Assembly: GCA_013214025.1 (NCBI GenBank)
Contig: JABSRN010000088.1
Span: 1 to 49,192, forward strand
Direction: 5' to 3'
From: Polyangiaceae bacterium
Lineage (GTDB): Bacteria > Myxococcota_A > Polyangia > Polyangiales > Polyangiaceae
Length of the DNA: 49,192 bases
The position numbers and the translations under genes were made by a program. Positions 7,429-13,885 of this stretch are shown here, in pieces; the stretch's first letter is position 1, and every line of letters starts with the position of its first letter. The notes below the pieces were generated by a model. That model ran no database searches. It was given only the letters and a program-made list of their open reading frames with translations, and was not told the DNA's origin.

Positions 7429-9732
7429 ATGCGCTCGTCCCAATTTTTGTTTCAACTCGGCTGCAGCACGGTAGTTTTCGCTCTCGCTTACGGATGTTCC
7501 GAGGCCGGTACGCCAATCAGCGGCACCGACCCAAACACAGGCACCACAGGCGGAAACGGGGGGCAGTATGGCACCGGAAGCGGAGGAAGCGGCGGGCTCC
7601 TAGGCTCCGGCGGCGTCGGCTTTGTCCCCGACAGCAGCGCCGGAACCGGCGGCATGCTGAATTTCGCGGGCTCCGGCGGCACCGGCGATGCGGGAACGGT
7701 AGACGAGGTGATTGTCGACTGCATCACCGATCAGCAATGCGACGACGGCAACGCGTGCACCAGCGACGCGTGCACCGGCGCCGGACTCTGCGACAACGTT
7801 CCCATTGATGGCAATTGCGACGACGGCAGCAGCTGTACGACCAGCGATACTTGCGATGCCGGAATCTGTGTCGGCACCGACACCTGCACAGACGGCAAGA
7901 GCTGCATCGCCGGTTTCTGTTCCAATTGCCGGACGGATTCTGACTGCGATGACCGCAACCCCTGCACATCGGATGTTTGCTCCGCCGGAACCTGCAGCAG
8001 TACCGATCTCGATGCGGGCGAATGCACGGACGGCGTCGCCTGTACCAGCGGAGATCACTGCGTGGGCGGCACCTGCATCTCCGGCGTTGGCGACAACAAC
8101 GTCTGTAACGACAACAACGTCTGTACCGACGACGCCTGCACATCGACCGAAGGCTGTAAAAACACTGGCAATACTGCTAGCTGCGACGACGGCGTCGCGT
8201 GCACCACAGACACATGCTCAAGCAAGGTTTGCGTCGGCGTACCGACAGAGGGCTCCTGCTCGGACGGCAACCCCTGCACCGCTGACATTTGCGACACCGT
8301 CTTCGGCTGCTCCAATCCCGCAGACGACACAGGGTCTTGCAGCGACAACCCGACGTGCACGATGGATAACGCTTGCTTGGCCGGCGTTTGCAAAGGGACC
8401 GACACGTGCAGCGGTGGGCAATTTTGTCCGCCCACAGGCGGCTGCACCGACTGCACAAGCGACACGGACTGCAGCGATGACGACCCCTGCACTGACGACG
8501 TGTGCGGCGGTTCTGGCTGTGAATATACGTTGAACACCGCCAACTGCGACGACGGCGTGGCTTGTACCAACAATGATACGTGCAACGCGGGGATATGCGG
8601 AGGCAGCCCCGACAACGGCTACTGCGACGACACAGAGAACTGCACCACGAATACCTGTGACCCCGCCCAGGGCTGCGTCGTCACCAACAACAGCAATGAT
8701 TGCGACGACGGGTATTCTTGTACTCACGAGGACCGCTGCGTGGGCGGTAGTTGCGGCTCGGGAACTCCGACACCGGCGGACTGCGACGATCAAAACATTT
8801 GCACCACCAACTCTTGCGACACCACCAACGGCGATTTTCTCACCGGTTGCTATACAGTCAACAATTCAAATGACTGCACGGACGACGTCACTTGCACCGA
8901 TGACGTTTGTTATGAAGGTGGCTGCTCGTCAGTGGCCAATTGCGACCCTGGAGAGCAGTGCGTGACCGAGACACAAATGTGTACGATTGTGACGGTCCGT
9001 ATGCATCTCACGTCGGAGAGCGAATTCAAGGCAGTCGAAACCAGCGGGTTGTTTGACCCAGAAGACGCCGCGGTGAGCGATTTTGACCCGGCGACCTTCG
9101 AGTTCAGTAACGAATCCTCGTCCCTCGACGCCGAGTTCGACTGCGGCTGGCTTTGCGGCAATCGCAAAGACAACATGGACGCCATCGCATCCTATGGCGG
9201 GGATCTCGTCGTCTCCTTCGATCGCAGCGGCTCGCTTCCGGATCAAGATGACGTACTCGAACACGAGCTCTGGCTGTACAACGGCGCCACGTGGAGCCTT
9301 TGGCTGGACATCTCCGGAGGGATCGACTGCCGAGGGATCGGCTGCGATGTAAGCCTGGACGCGGCGCACATCATGGCCAACGGCGACGTATACTTCTCCC
9401 TGGGTGGACGGGGCACGATCATCACCGGCGACGTCGACTTCGATGAGGGCGACATCATCCGTCATAGCGGCGGAGTGTATACACGTGTGGCGGTACAGAG
9501 TTCCTATGACGACCGCGATATCGACGGCATCAGCGTCAACCCCATCACCCAGCGCTTCGTCGTTTCGTTTACCAACGACGGCTCCAACGGATCCGCCTTC
9601 GAGCAGGAAGATATCGTCCAGTTGGCGTTCGGTCCCGGTGACATTGCCATCCCAGGAACTACCATGTTCATGGACGGCTCAGCTCACATGGTCGATGACG
9701 GGGGCAACATCAATGGCGTACACATCGAGTAG
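7429..9732 (+). CDS. Large secreted lipoprotein with Cys/Asp-rich repeats
   Basis: A 767-residue protein with a signal peptide ending ALAYGC (Cys23), a plausible but imperfect lipobox. Residues 24-90 are Gly/Ser/Thr-rich. Residues about 96-519 are a long tandem of short Cys-rich units of the pattern CDDGxxCTxDxCxxGxCxG, a repeat style common in secreted proteins of Myxococcota and their relatives; the regular Asp and Cys suggest disulfide-stapled, perhaps calcium-binding, loops. Residues 520-767 lack this pattern and contain three copies of a hydrophobic-VSFD-G-DEDI-like motif (DLVVSFDRSG, DVYFSLGGRG, RFVVSFTNDG), probably a beta-rich domain. No enzyme motif is visible. AAGG precedes the ATG. 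Likely on the outer surface; function unknown. It stands alone, divergent from nothing and followed by a hairpin at 9768. Confidence 0.85.
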   Translation: MRSSQFLFQLGCSTVVFALAYGCSEAGTPISGTDPNTGTTGGNGGQYGTGSGGSGGLLGSGGVGFVPDSSAGTGGMLNFAGSGGTGDAGTVDEVIVDCITDQQCDDGNACTSDACTGAGLCDNVPIDGNCDDGSSCTTSDTCDAGICVGTDTCTDGKSCIAGFCSNCRTDSDCDDRNPCTSDVCSAGTCSSTDLDAGECTDGVACTSGDHCVGGTCISGVGDNNVCNDNNVCTDDACTSTEGCKNTGNTASCDDGVACTTDTCSSKVCVGVPTEGSCSDGNPCTADICDTVFGCSNPADDTGSCSDNPTCTMDNACLAGVCKGTDTCSGGQFCPPTGGCTDCTSDTDCSDDDPCTDDVCGGSGCEYTLNTANCDDGVACTNNDTCNAGICGGSPDNGYCDDTENCTTNTCDPAQGCVVTNNSNDCDDGYSCTHEDRCVGGSCGSGTPTPADCDDQNICTTNSCDTTNGDFLTGCYTVNNSNDCTDDVTCTDDVCYEGGCSSVANCDPGEQCVTETQMCTIVTVRMHLTSESEFKAVETSGLFDPEDAAVSDFDPATFEFSNESSSLDAEFDCGWLCGNRKDNMDAIASYGGDLVVSFDRSGSLPDQDDVLEHELWLYNGATWSLWLDISGGIDCRGIGCDVSLDAAHIMANGDVYFSLGGRGTIITGDVDFDEGDIIRHSGGVYTRVAVQSSYDDRDIDGISVNPITQRFVVSFTNDGSNGSAFEQEDIVQLAFGPGDIAIPGTTMFMDGSAHMVDDGGNINGVHIE

Positions 9733-9767
9733 GGCGCCCCTCGGAGGCACGGGAAACTCAGCTCATC

Positions 9768-9792
9768 GGGGATCCTCATCCAGCCGATCCCC
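9768..9792 (+). terminator. Hairpin after the Cys-rich lipoprotein gene
   Basis: GGGGATC (9768-9774) pairs exactly with GATCCCC (9786-9792) across an 11-nt loop, 35 nt after the stop codon. No T-run follows, so it may be a transcript-end stabiliser rather than a true intrinsic terminator. Confidence 0.4.
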
Positions 9793-9960
9793 CCATTCGG
9801 TAATCAGTGGCAACGCCCCTCGGAGCTTGCGCTGACCGCGCTCCTCTCACCAGGAACTGCCGACAACTAGCCGGAGTCCCGGCGACGATCTCGACGGGCG
9901 CACGCCAATCCCATCACGCCCAGGCGCGTTCGCCCCGCAGTGGTGCGCTATTAGCTGCTT

Positions 9961-10124
9961 CCACCCGCGAATCGCGGCGCTCACCCTTCCGTCTGCTGCG
10001 CACTATCAGCGAATCGCCAGTAGGTCGGAGCGCACAGCCGGCGCCACCCGCGCATTGCCGCGTTCACCCTTCCGTCTCATGGCGCGAATGGCTACACCAC
10101 CCGGCAATCGCCGCGCCCCCCTCG
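9961..10124. repeat. Degenerate direct repeats in a gene-free stretch
   Basis: The gene-free interval 9733-10146 contains a 34-nt unit starting CCACCCGCGAATCGC (9961-9994) that recurs as CCACCCGCGCATTGC (10044-10077); both end TCACCCTTCCGTCT. A shorter relative, CCACCCGGCAATCGC, begins at 10097. Spacings of 83 and 53 nt are irregular and the copies diverge, unlike a CRISPR array. CGCCCCTCGGAG-like words also occur near 9735 and 9811. Function is unknown. Confidence 0.5.
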
Positions 10125-10146
10125 TTCTGACGACGCCCAAAACACG

Positions 10147-10179
10147 ACGGCCCCGCTCACCAAAGGTGGGCAGGGCCGT
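10147..10179 (-). terminator. Rho-independent terminator of the methyltransferase gene
   Basis: Read on the minus strand, ACGGCCC (10179-10173) pairs with GGGCCGT (10153-10147), with CACC/GGTG pairing inside, and GTGTTTTGGG follows. It lies about 40 nt after the stop codon of the 10221-11684 gene. Confidence 0.7.
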
Positions 10180-10220
10180 GCGAGAGCGTTTCCGCTCGAG
10201 TCTCTATCGGTAGAGAGTGG

Positions 10221-11684
10221 CTACTGCTGGGTGGCGACCGTCTTCTTGCCGATCCAGCGCTTCTCGCGGCTGTAGGGTACGGCGCCAGCTTCTTCGGCAC
10301 TCACCGACTCTTTGTCGAGCTTGGTGTTCTTCGCCAGCGTGATCATGAACACGGTGGAACTGCCCTGGGCGCCGATGATGACAGACCAGGAAAGGAACAT
10401 CATCCACATGCGGAACCAACGCTCACCGTACTTGGCGACGATGGCCTCTTCGTTGGACTTCCAGTTGTCGTACCATTTGTGAATGGTCACGGAGTAATGA
10501 ACGCCGCAGTTCTCCACTCGGTGAACTTCAAAGCCTGCTCGTTCACACTGGCTGGTCACGAAACCGAGAGGGCAACTCGCGTCCGCTCCGGGGAAAATGT
10601 ACTTGCCCATGAATAGGCCCCAGACCAAGTCTTCGTACTGCCAAGAGCGACGGAGTCCGGCAATCTGCAGATAGAAGATACCGTCGTCCTCAAGCATGCT
10701 TCGGACTTGGAGCAGGAACTTTTGGAAGTTCTTGATACCAACGTGCTCGGCCATTTCCAAACATGTGATCTTGTCCCACTTCTGGGCGGGTAGATTTCGG
10801 TAGTCGTCCACGATGACGGTGACCTTGTCGGAAACGCCGTCGTTCTTGGCTCGCTCGTGAGCCCAGTCCGCTTGCTCTTGGGCGAGAGTGATCCCGGTGC
10901 TGATGCTGCCGTGATTCTTAGCGGCGTGGCAGACTAGCGGTCCCCATCCACAGCCGATATCCAGGTGGCGGTCGCCTTCCTGCATCTGCACGTACTCGCA
11001 GACTTTTTCCAGCTTGCGTCGCTGAGCGTCCTCCAGAGTATCCTCGGGATCCTCAAAAATGCCGGTGGTGTACACCATCGTGTCGCCGAGGAACCAATTG
11101 TAGAAATCGTTACCGCGGTTGTAGACGTTCGCGATATCGCCTTCGTCGGAAGTCACCGTGTGGGTGACGTTCTGGCCCAAAAATTCACCAAAGTAGAACT
11201 TGGCGTCGCCCCACGTAAAACACATGCGAAACAGCTTGTTGCGCTTCAGCATGGTCTCGTAGACGTCCTGCTTGAAATCGAGCTTTTCGGCCATGTAGGC
11301 CTCGTAGAGGATCTCCATCGGGATCTTCTTGCCGCTCCACTTGGCCGCCATCTTGGCGTCCTTGAACTCGACGAAGGGGGCCCAGTCGACAGCTCCTCCA
11401 TCATGCCTTCGTGAGCCGATGATTAGGCTCATGGCTGGAATGCCCACCAAGACCAACGGAACAGCGATCCATGTGCCAACGAAGACTGGCCAGCCGAGAC
11501 CACTCGCGAACATCGCCGCCGCGGCTATCGCCGTCGGAATCAACAGCAGCAAGAAAACGCTCTGCTCCAATACCCAGAAAATGAAGGGCAGTGCGTGGGA
11601 GCGTCCGGTCTCCGAGTGCTGGGACGCGACCGAAGTGGTCGGCGATGAATTTAAAGGAAGATTGTCGATCGTTGATTGGCTCAT
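10221..11684 (-). CDS. CFA-synthase-family SAM methyltransferase resembling eukaryotic sphingolipid C9-methyltransferase
   Basis: A 487-residue membrane-anchored methyltransferase. Two hydrophobic helices (about 33-62 and 65-90) precede a linker and a cyclopropane-fatty-acid-synthase-type domain. The SAM motif is LDIGCGWGP (241-249), and EMAEHVG (310-316) is the family's acidic motif. The segment GLRRSWQYEDLVWGLFMG with KYIFPGADAS (343-370) and GVHYSVT (394-400) is, from my knowledge of the family, characteristic of fungal sphingolipid C9-methyltransferases, which share the two N-terminal helices and length; ordinary bacterial CFA synthases lack the helices and these words. The likely reaction is SAM-dependent methylation of a lipid chain double bond at the membrane; sphingolipid as substrate is inferred. 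An upstream ATG at 11762 adds 26 residues; ATG 11684 (MSQSTIDN) is preferred because the helices start soon after. A terminator follows. Stands alone. Confidence 0.85.
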   Translation of the reverse strand: MSQSTIDNLPLNSSPTTSVASQHSETGRSHALPFIFWVLEQSVFLLLLIPTAIAAAAMFASGLGWPVFVGTWIAVPLVLVGIPAMSLIIGSRRHDGGAVDWAPFVEFKDAKMAAKWSGKKIPMEILYEAYMAEKLDFKQDVYETMLKRNKLFRMCFTWGDAKFYFGEFLGQNVTHTVTSDEGDIANVYNRGNDFYNWFLGDTMVYTTGIFEDPEDTLEDAQRRKLEKVCEYVQMQEGDRHLDIGCGWGPLVCHAAKNHGSISTGITLAQEQADWAHERAKNDGVSDKVTVIVDDYRNLPAQKWDKITCLEMAEHVGIKNFQKFLLQVRSMLEDDGIFYLQIAGLRRSWQYEDLVWGLFMGKYIFPGADASCPLGFVTSQCERAGFEVHRVENCGVHYSVTIHKWYDNWKSNEEAIVAKYGERWFRMWMMFLSWSVIIGAQGSSTVFMITLAKNTKLDKESVSAEEAGAVPYSREKRWIGKKTVATQQ

Positions 11685-12404: not shown

Positions 12405-12514
12405 CTGACTGATCCCGCGGCGCCTCGTTGCACCGAATTGAGTGAATCGCGGAATTATGGGCATATTTCGCGCCACAAGCTGGCCTCAAAGCGCATCCCA
12501 TGCGATGGGGGCGC

Positions 12515-13885
12515 GTGACTTTCTCAGAGTTAAAGCTGATCCCCGAGCTTCTCAAAGCGGTGGAAAAGGCCGGCTATACGACGCCGACGCCCATCCAAAA
12601 AGACGCGATCCCCCCTGCCCTGGCGGGCAAGGACATCATCGGTACGGCCCAAACCGGAACAGGTAAGACGGCAGCGTTTTCCCTGCCGGTGCTGCAGCGT
12701 ATCGACGAGATGGCAGGCAAGGAGGTGGAGCTCCGGTGCTTGGTCCTGACCCCCACTCGAGAACTCGCAGCCCAAATCGCCGATAGCTTCAAGACCTACG
12801 GCAGCGAACTCGACATCTATCACACGGTGATATTCGGGGGCGTCAACGACAAGCCTCAAATCCGCGAGCTTCGTCGTGGTGTCGACGTCTTGGTCGCCAC
12901 CCCCGGACGGCTGCTAGACTTGATGAATCAAGGGGTCGTGAACTTGGGCTCTGTCGATATTTTCGTACTCGACGAAGCCGATCGCATGCTGGATATGGGC
13001 TTCTTGCCTGATGTTCGTCGGGTCACTGCCAAGTTGCCCCAGAAGCGACAAACGCTGTTCTTCTCCGCCACCATGCCCGCCGAGATCCGCGAGCTGGCTT
13101 CGGGGCTGCTCTACAAACCCGTCGAGGTTTCGGTCGCTCCTGTATCGGCGACCGCTGAACGGGTCGAGCAACACATGTATTTTGTCGACAAGGGCAACAA
13201 GCGGCACCTACTGGTCGATCTAGTAGAGGCCGACGACGTAAAAAAGTGCCTCGTCTTCAGTCGAACCAAGCACGGTGCGAACCGAATCGTGAAGGGGCTC
13301 CGCGCCGCGAATGTCTCGTCAGAGGCGATTCACGGAAACAAGTCGCAGAACGCACGTGTACGTGCCTTGGAAGACTTTCGAAACGGTGAGGTCAAGGTCC
13401 TGGTCGCCACCGACATCGCGGCGCGCGGAATCGATATCGACGGCGTCAGCCACGTCATCAACTACGATATTCCGAACATCCCAGAGACGTACGTGCATCG
13501 CATCGGACGGACCGCGCGCGCCGGCGCCGAAGGCATCGCGCTGTCTTTCTGCGAAAGCGAAGAGCGCCCCTTCTTGGTCGACATCGAGCGCTTAATTCGC
13601 CGCAACATCCCTCGCGTCGAAGATCATAGCTACCCGCCGAGTGAGCCAGTTCCAGAAGAGACGGATCTGGAACGCAAGGGCCGCGGCGGCGGAGCACGTC
13701 GTGCCGGTGCCGGCAATTCAGGGTCCCGAGGTCGCGGCCCACGGCGCGGCGGTGGCGGTCGGCCCGGTGGTGGTGGTGGTGGTGGACGCGGCGGGCAACG
13801 CCCCGGACGCCCGGGTGGACAGCGTCGCAACGGTGGCGGCTCCTCCGGAAGCGGTCGCCGTAGCTCAGCCTCGAAGAGCCGTTAG
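12515..13885 (+). CDS. DEAD-box RNA helicase (RhlE-like)
   Basis: An ATP-dependent RNA helicase of 456 residues that would unwind RNA secondary structure during ribosome assembly or mRNA decay. Motifs in order: Q motif GYTTPTPIQ, motif I AQTGTGKT, Ia [10 protein letters not shown] doublet, TPGR, motif II DEAD (VLDEADRM), motif III SAT, motif [15 protein letters not shown], motif [11 protein letters not shown] and motif [12 protein letters not shown]. The C-terminal 75 residues are a low-complexity Gly/Arg tail with Gly runs, typical of RNA-binding extensions. GTG at 12515 ([11 protein letters not shown]) is preferred because GGGGG lies just upstream and homologues begin MTFSEL; ATG at 12500 in the same frame adds five residues. 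It is monocistronic. The specific RNA target is not evident. Confidence 0.93.

Follow-up and report, generated by a model that had tools for sequence, protein, structure and literature searches.

The window (the whole 49,192-nucleotide stretch of DNA analyzed) carries a gene whose product had been likened, in an earlier note made from the sequence alone, to fungal sphingolipid C9-methyltransferase (EC 2.1.1.317). The locus raises the question of whether a bacterium encodes an enzyme of this type distinct from the cyclopropane fatty acid (CFA) synthases and, if so, on which lipid it acts. The open reading frame was found as the note had described it, on the minus strand at positions 10221 to 11684 and encoding 487 amino acids. 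Based on the list of open reading frames, Pfam and alignment, the product was classed as a membrane-anchored C-methyltransferase of the CMAS family, in a long-form (LF) clade. Translation from the ATG at position 11684 fits an alignment of relatives, whose N-termini differ by about 10 residues. The genome (G000) is 5.77 Mb in 184 contigs with a completeness of 97%.

Two N-terminal hydrophobic segments were detected by hydropathy at residues 42-60 (11505 to 11561, minus strand) and 73-91 (11412 to 11468, minus strand) and were matched by helices at residues 43-61 and 65-94 in a structure model of the protein (mean pLDDT 79.4), in agreement with the two membrane helices claimed for this region. 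The CMAS domain (PF02353) was located at residues 178-435 (10380 to 11153, minus strand) with a Pfam score of 215.9 bits (E 8.9e-64; cut-off 27), which is far beyond chance. The sequence words on which the likeness had been based, QYEDLVWGLFMG, KYIFPGADAS and GVHYSVT, were all present. Among the minus-strand features defined by alignment, QYEDLVWGLFMGKYIFPGADAS (residues 349-370; 10575 to 10640) was strongly conserved in LF proteins and partially in short-form (SF) relatives, GVHYSVT (residues 394-400; 10485 to 10505) included a His396 and Tyr397 that were invariant in 20 LF and 59 SF rows, and a C-terminal tail specific to LF (residues 454-487; 10224 to 10325) ended in TQQ, with T485, Q486 and Q487 invariant in 8 of 8 aligned LF rows. 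Across the 8 aligned LF rows WGLFM was invariant and FPGADAS nearly so; the text string FPGADAS was not found in a literature search.

The distribution of the family was determined by searching 282 genomes of a phylum sample with the window protein at a match line of E <= 1e-20. By this approach, 85 of the 282 genomes were found to match, 8 with long forms, 15 with short forms (G244 counting under both) and the rest with CFA-type proteins. The long forms, which include that of the window's own genome, were 65-73% identical to the window protein in the other seven genomes. Short forms were 42-48% identical and started mostly near residue 103 (that of G081 being a fragment), and the CFA-type proteins of the remaining matching genomes were at most 38% identical. 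From a scan of named genomes, the top 80 of 198 relatives were used (19 LF and 61 SF), which brought the LF set to 20 genomes including the window's own, with 8 inside the phylum sample and 12 outside. Among these best 80 of 198, the LF genomes were titled Myxococcales, Polyangiaceae, Sorangium, Archangiaceae or, more vaguely, deltaproteobacterium, proteobacterium or bacterium, and the SF hosts included Myxococcota, Bacteroidota, Ignavibacteria (Ignavibacteriota), Chlorobiota, Kapaibacteria, Kiritimatiellae, Oligoflexia and others. The SF proteins resembled the window protein in sequence (43-51% identity, mostly from residue ~102 to 455-485), in an FPGADAS-type motif and in having desaturase neighbours. 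By contrast, an N-terminal hydrophobic segment was detected in 0 of 59 SF rows and, upstream of the core, in 20 of 20 LF rows (18 with at least two, 2 with one above threshold). Two of the 81 loci, the SF loci L071 and L096, had no open reading frame fitting the motif filter and were left out of the hydropathy count and of the tree. Viral relatives were also considered and rejected, as 0 of 47 pattern matches in viral contigs were confirmed.

A quick tree rooted on CFA, with 86 rows (20 LF, 59 SF and 7 CFA including E. coli Cfa), showed LF as monophyletic (SH-aLRT 100, stem 0.88) and placed it inside SF with moderate support (forks 81-91). The split of LF plus SF from CFA had a support of 91, with the CFA rows on long branches. 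A position deep among ordinary bacterial CFA synthases, the finding that the earlier note had named as speaking against its reading, was thus not observed, and the window protein fell outside the CFA rows. What is best supported overall, in narrower terms than those of the earlier note, is a membrane-anchored C-methyltransferase that belongs to a bacterial family separate from the CFA synthases and probably acts on a lipid chain together with a desaturase.

The structural comparisons bear on an alternative, a CFA synthase with an acquired membrane anchor. The closest solved relatives by sequence were CFA synthases (5z9o, E 6e-47; 7qos, E 8e-47), and the predicted fold was closest to the CFA synthases 7qos, 5z9o and 6bqc, followed by mycobacterial mycolic acid methyltransferases and UmaA. 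Domain, predicted fold and the active-site Glu and Tyr are common to the window protein and the E. coli (Cfa, 6bqc), Aquifex (7qos) and Lactobacillus (5z9o) enzymes. In addition, the window protein was the only strong match to PF02353 in G000 (the other four were at or below 30 bits), and because of this it might be the CFA synthase of the organism. By contrast, it differs from CFA synthases in its N-terminal hairpin, in three active-site columns and in its separate clade, is 26-29% identical to them in fold alignments, and scored far under the cut-offs of the NCBIfam CFA synthase models (198.3 of 600, 187.1 of 400 and 184.5 of 650 bits). The columns concerned belong to the set Cys139, Glu239, His266, Ile268 and Tyr317 of E. 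coli Cfa, residues that we take to hold bicarbonate in CFA synthases. Of these, Glu239 and Tyr317 (Glu313 and Tyr397 of the window protein) were retained in every LF and SF row. The Cys139 column was Ser/Thr in 17 of 20 LF and 58 of 59 SF rows, the Ile268 column was Ala in 20 of 20 LF and 48 of 59 SF rows, and the His266 column was Gln in all LF (20 of 20) and SF rows, a residue also found there in 4 of 6 CFA rows of the phylum. This pattern fits, and does not prove, an altered outcome from the same intermediate. Furthermore, one genome (G244) carries an LF protein, an SF protein and a separate, CFA-like protein. Given its place in the tree, its scores under the NCBIfam cut-offs and its changed active-site columns, an ordinary CFA synthase was lowered as the whole answer for the window protein, and the anchored CFA synthase is considered improbable.

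Fungal C9-methyltransferases carry PF02353 as well. PMC9325734 describes N. crassa scumbo (NCU07859) as a 525-residue protein in which two helices (53-75 and 87-109) precede the methyltransferase domain (266-367), with a conserved EHV located at residue 341; the same source notes an earlier annotation of the fungal enzyme as a CFA synthase and calls the C9-methyltransferase "only found in fungi". Other reports agree: C9-methylation "appears to be a unique feature" of fungal neutral glycosphingolipids and follows Delta4 and Delta8 desaturation (PMC12942302), C9-methyltransferases are counted among fungal-specific enzymes (PMC13161914), and the enzyme is treated under fungi-specific LCB biosynthesis (PMC6920741). 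A report of a bacterial C9-methyltransferase was not found in the titles and abstract openings searched, a scope that most subscription journals lie outside. NCU07859 and the window protein have in common a methyltransferase domain and two N-terminal membrane helices. When measured from EHV, which is at residue 313 of the window protein, the helix centres lie 277 and 243 residues upstream in N. crassa and 262 and 231 in the window protein, the domain centre lies at 24.5 and 25, and the distance from EHV to the end is 184 versus 174. The helix distances thus differ by no more than 15 residues between the two proteins and those of the domain centre by no more than 1, and the window protein has both the CMAS domain and two N-terminal helices at about the published fungal spacing. 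Judged by these sequence landmarks, the likeness drawn to the fungal enzyme holds good for the layout of the window protein, which resembles that of the fungal sphingolipid enzyme more closely than that of ordinary bacterial cyclopropane synthases.

An approximate fungal sequence, which may be wrong in places, scored 285-353 bits against LF, 345-403 bits against SF and at most 160 bits against CFA proteins. In the tree this same approximate sequence was placed inside LF plus SF and not beside LF, a result that is a lead only. The shared two-helix layout and landmark spacing would also be expected if a eukaryotic C9-methyltransferase gene had been acquired from a fungus, a possibility raised with the original likeness. 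This explanation is highly improbable, as LF is nested among bacterial SF rows (at the forks noted above), is spread over at least 20 genomes and was not joined by the approximate fungal sequence, lead though the latter is.

We examined whether LF proteins occur together with a desaturase. The query was L139, a desaturase encoded on contig C163 of the window's genome at a locus apart from the methyltransferase gene, and the same 282 genomes were searched at a line of E <= 1e-50, which 27 genomes passed. An L139-type desaturase was found in 8 of 8 LF genomes versus 19 of 274 others (Fisher p 2.5e-9, shared ancestry ignored). It was also found in 9 of 15 SF genomes, giving 16 of 22 genomes with LF or SF versus 11 of 260 with neither (Fisher p 1.5e-14, shared ancestry ignored). 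Among LF genomes that were not part of the sample, the desaturase was detected in 10 of 12 at E <= 1e-50 and in 11 of 12 at 1e-15; at E <= 1e-50 it was missing from G287, with no match, and from G293, with a best match of 1.7e-42. Solved-structure relatives of the L139 desaturase were not found at E <= 1.

Desaturase-like genes were also detected directly beside the methyltransferase genes of relatives. By BLAST, 3 of 20 LF loci had such an open reading frame, located 27 bp (L046) and 10 bp (L051) after the LF gene on the same strand and 6 bp from it in convergent orientation (L050). Because L050 and L051 are close relatives, these amount to about two independent cases. Within 521 bp of the SF gene, a desaturase-like open reading frame was detected by BLAST at 8 of 61 loci (L057, L067, L076, L083, L090, L092, L106 and L110), of which L090 and L092 are near copies. 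Pfam FA_desaturase was confirmed for those run (L051, L067, L076 and L057). The chance of an adjacent desaturase is roughly 0.45% per gene, a figure based on the density in the window's own genome and an assumed one gene per kilobase. In a desaturase tree, where G000 was represented by 9 intact desaturases out of its 13 matches, 6 of the 8 SF-neighbour desaturases (all except those of L057 and L076) grouped with L139 (34-38% identity, SH-aLRT 96), and the desaturases beside the three LF genes formed a sister group, 29-32% identical to L139. Based on this grouping, the type adjacent to SF is the type that co-occurs with LF, and the type adjacent to LF is a cousin.

The fungal Delta8 sphingolipid desaturase is a cytochrome b5 fusion. 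Unlike the fungal system, LF is hosted by bacteria and its co-occurring desaturase is not of the cytochrome b5 front-end type. A front-end desaturase of that type was lowered as a general partner, since it was found in 1 of the 8 sample LF genomes, the window's own, with the other 7 having none. This G000 enzyme is encoded on contig C97 (L145:9317-11095) beside a large open reading frame that is polyketide synthase-like by eye, and within the phylum sample its relatives at 58-62% come from 5 genomes of a single further genus.

Taken together, these findings suggest a SAM-dependent C-methyltransferase, anchored by a hairpin, that acts on a lipid chain after an L139-type desaturase. The two-helix hairpin would hold the methyltransferase on the membrane, the L139-type membrane desaturase encoded elsewhere in G000 would desaturate a lipid chain, and the window enzyme would then methylate the new double bond, using SAM as the methyl donor, to give a methyl-branched product, with the desaturase as its direct supplier. 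The order would be that of fungi, where desaturation comes first and sphingolipid C9-methylation follows. The desaturase and C-methyltransferase probably act on a lipid chain, either sphingoid or acyl. We regard a general scheme of desaturation followed by methylation as fairly likely, an estimate that was slightly reduced because the desaturases adjacent to LF are a sister subfamily; the whole explanation as set out for the window protein is favored by somewhat better than an even chance.

We next considered the substrate. The earlier note had also made its reading depend on sphingolipid pathway genes in the genome, and these were found in G000 as a serine palmitoyltransferase and a Lipid_DES domain. 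The best solved matches of the former were to Sphingobacterium-type serine palmitoyltransferase (371.9 and 371.8 bits; best other name 266.8), and in NCBIfam the Bacteroidetes-type serine palmitoyltransferase ranked first, under its cut-off (451 of 640). In PMC9386255, myxobacterial serine palmitoyltransferases are stated to group with those of Bacteroidetes. Downstream of the G000 gene is a 375-amino-acid protein without Pfam or NCBIfam match, and 7 of the 11 other LF loci have a relative of it next to serine palmitoyltransferase; we infer that this protein may be the bacterial ceramide synthase. The Lipid_DES domain (PF08557) on contig C101 scored 64.1 bits (such a domain was found in 0 of 14 control genomes) and lies in a DES1-like Delta4-desaturase gene (L159, about 9274-10193) that is split into two frames in G000, by either an assembly error or a genuine break, and has intact copies in other LF genomes. 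Because G000 has both a serine palmitoyltransferase and this frame-broken Delta4-desaturase-like gene, a sphingolipid substrate is plausible.

Across LF genomes, however, sphingoid chains may not be the rule. A clear serine palmitoyltransferase, defined as about 299 bits or more by a line set post hoc (next lower score 280), was found in 12 of 20 LF genomes, and Lipid_DES was found in 5 of 20, all among those 12. Thus, the proposed resemblance to the fungal enzyme over CFA synthases held for layout and for the position outside the CFA rows, and its sphingolipid part was borne out only moderately. Within the phylum sample, a clear serine palmitoyltransferase was found in 4 of 8 LF genomes versus 57 of 274 others (Fisher p 0.07) and in 10 of 22 genomes with LF or SF versus 51 of 260 (p 0.008), and Lipid_DES was found in 2 of 8 LF versus 7 of 274 non-LF genomes (p 0.02), shared ancestry being ignored in all three tests. 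At single loci, the SF gene of L076 is flanked by an FA_hydroxylase gene and a Lipid_DES desaturase gene, and a clear serine palmitoyltransferase was not found in its genome (G090). At L054, a GT21 glycosyltransferase gene precedes the LF gene by 22 bp in the same orientation, and the serine palmitoyltransferase of this genome scored 358 bits. Both solved matches of this GT21 were ceramide glucosyltransferases (E 2e-29). Its assignment as a certain ceramide glucosyltransferase was rejected, as HpnI was the best NCBIfam family (237.4 bits, under the cut-off of 310).

The same two steps could instead act on a glycerophospholipid acyl chain or another non-sphingoid lipid and yield a methyl-branched fatty acid. 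The eight LF genomes with no clear serine palmitoyltransferase (G139, G019, G122, G156, G284, G286, G291 and G292) all have an L139-type desaturase at E <= 1e-50, and because of this LF and the desaturase as a pair need no sphingolipids. In NCBIfam runs on the best candidate of each of these genomes (a single hit each for G019, G122 and G156), the top-ranking family was BioF or glycine acetyltransferase in G284, G286, G122, G156 and G019. SF relatives in groups such as Ignavibacteria and Kapaibacteria, and a WS/DGAT acyltransferase 434 bp from the LF gene of L050, may also point to an acyl substrate. By contrast, the candidates of G291, G139 and G292 ranked first as serine palmitoyltransferase, narrowly and far under the cut-off (323 of 640 bits), and the p values of 0.008 and 0.02 reported above indicate that serine palmitoyltransferase and Lipid_DES are somewhat enriched with LF or SF. 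An acyl or other non-sphingoid chain is a real possibility that we place well short of even. For the organism of the window, a ceramide or other sphingoid substrate is a plausible reading of the same scheme, at rather less than an even chance.

A broader proposal, that myxobacteria make C-methylated desaturated ceramides by a bacterial enzyme pair and that the fungal C9-methyltransferase, regarded as an invention of fungi, was derived from the bacterial LF and SF stock, is tentative and on balance doubtful. If it were true, a bacterial family with the fungal layout and a link to a desaturase would point to bacteria as a possible source of the fungal enzyme, methyl-branched sphingoid bases would be weaker as a fungal-only marker, and a bacterial system would become available for testing how CMAS enzymes choose between a ring and a methyl branch.

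Several observations were made on the surroundings of these genes. The neighbours immediately flanking the window gene included no lipid genes by eye. A conserved neighbourhood was rejected: the recurrent clusters, counted when present in at least 3 loci, consisted of the methyltransferase, its shadow-like open reading frames, the desaturase and large families (ABC-transporter-like and kinase-like by eye), with the neighbourhood of L038 judged in part, as a shadow open reading frame was taken for the methyltransferase there. A DEAD-box helicase-like open reading frame (by eye) is near the LF gene both in the window (12500 to 13885) and at L040 (12210-13760), in differing arrangements. A 767-amino-acid cysteine-rich repeat protein with many C.DG..CT-like repeats by eye (7429 to 9732) adjoins the methyltransferase gene. 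On contig C163, a 1618-amino-acid open reading frame with IDO, cytochrome b5 and FAD/NAD reductase domains (L160:10055-14911) lies convergent to and 20 bp from L139 and is a possible electron donor. In all, G000 has 13 FA_desaturase matches on 11 contigs in 5.8 Mb, of which one is under the cut-off and two are pieces of the one broken desaturase gene on C101.
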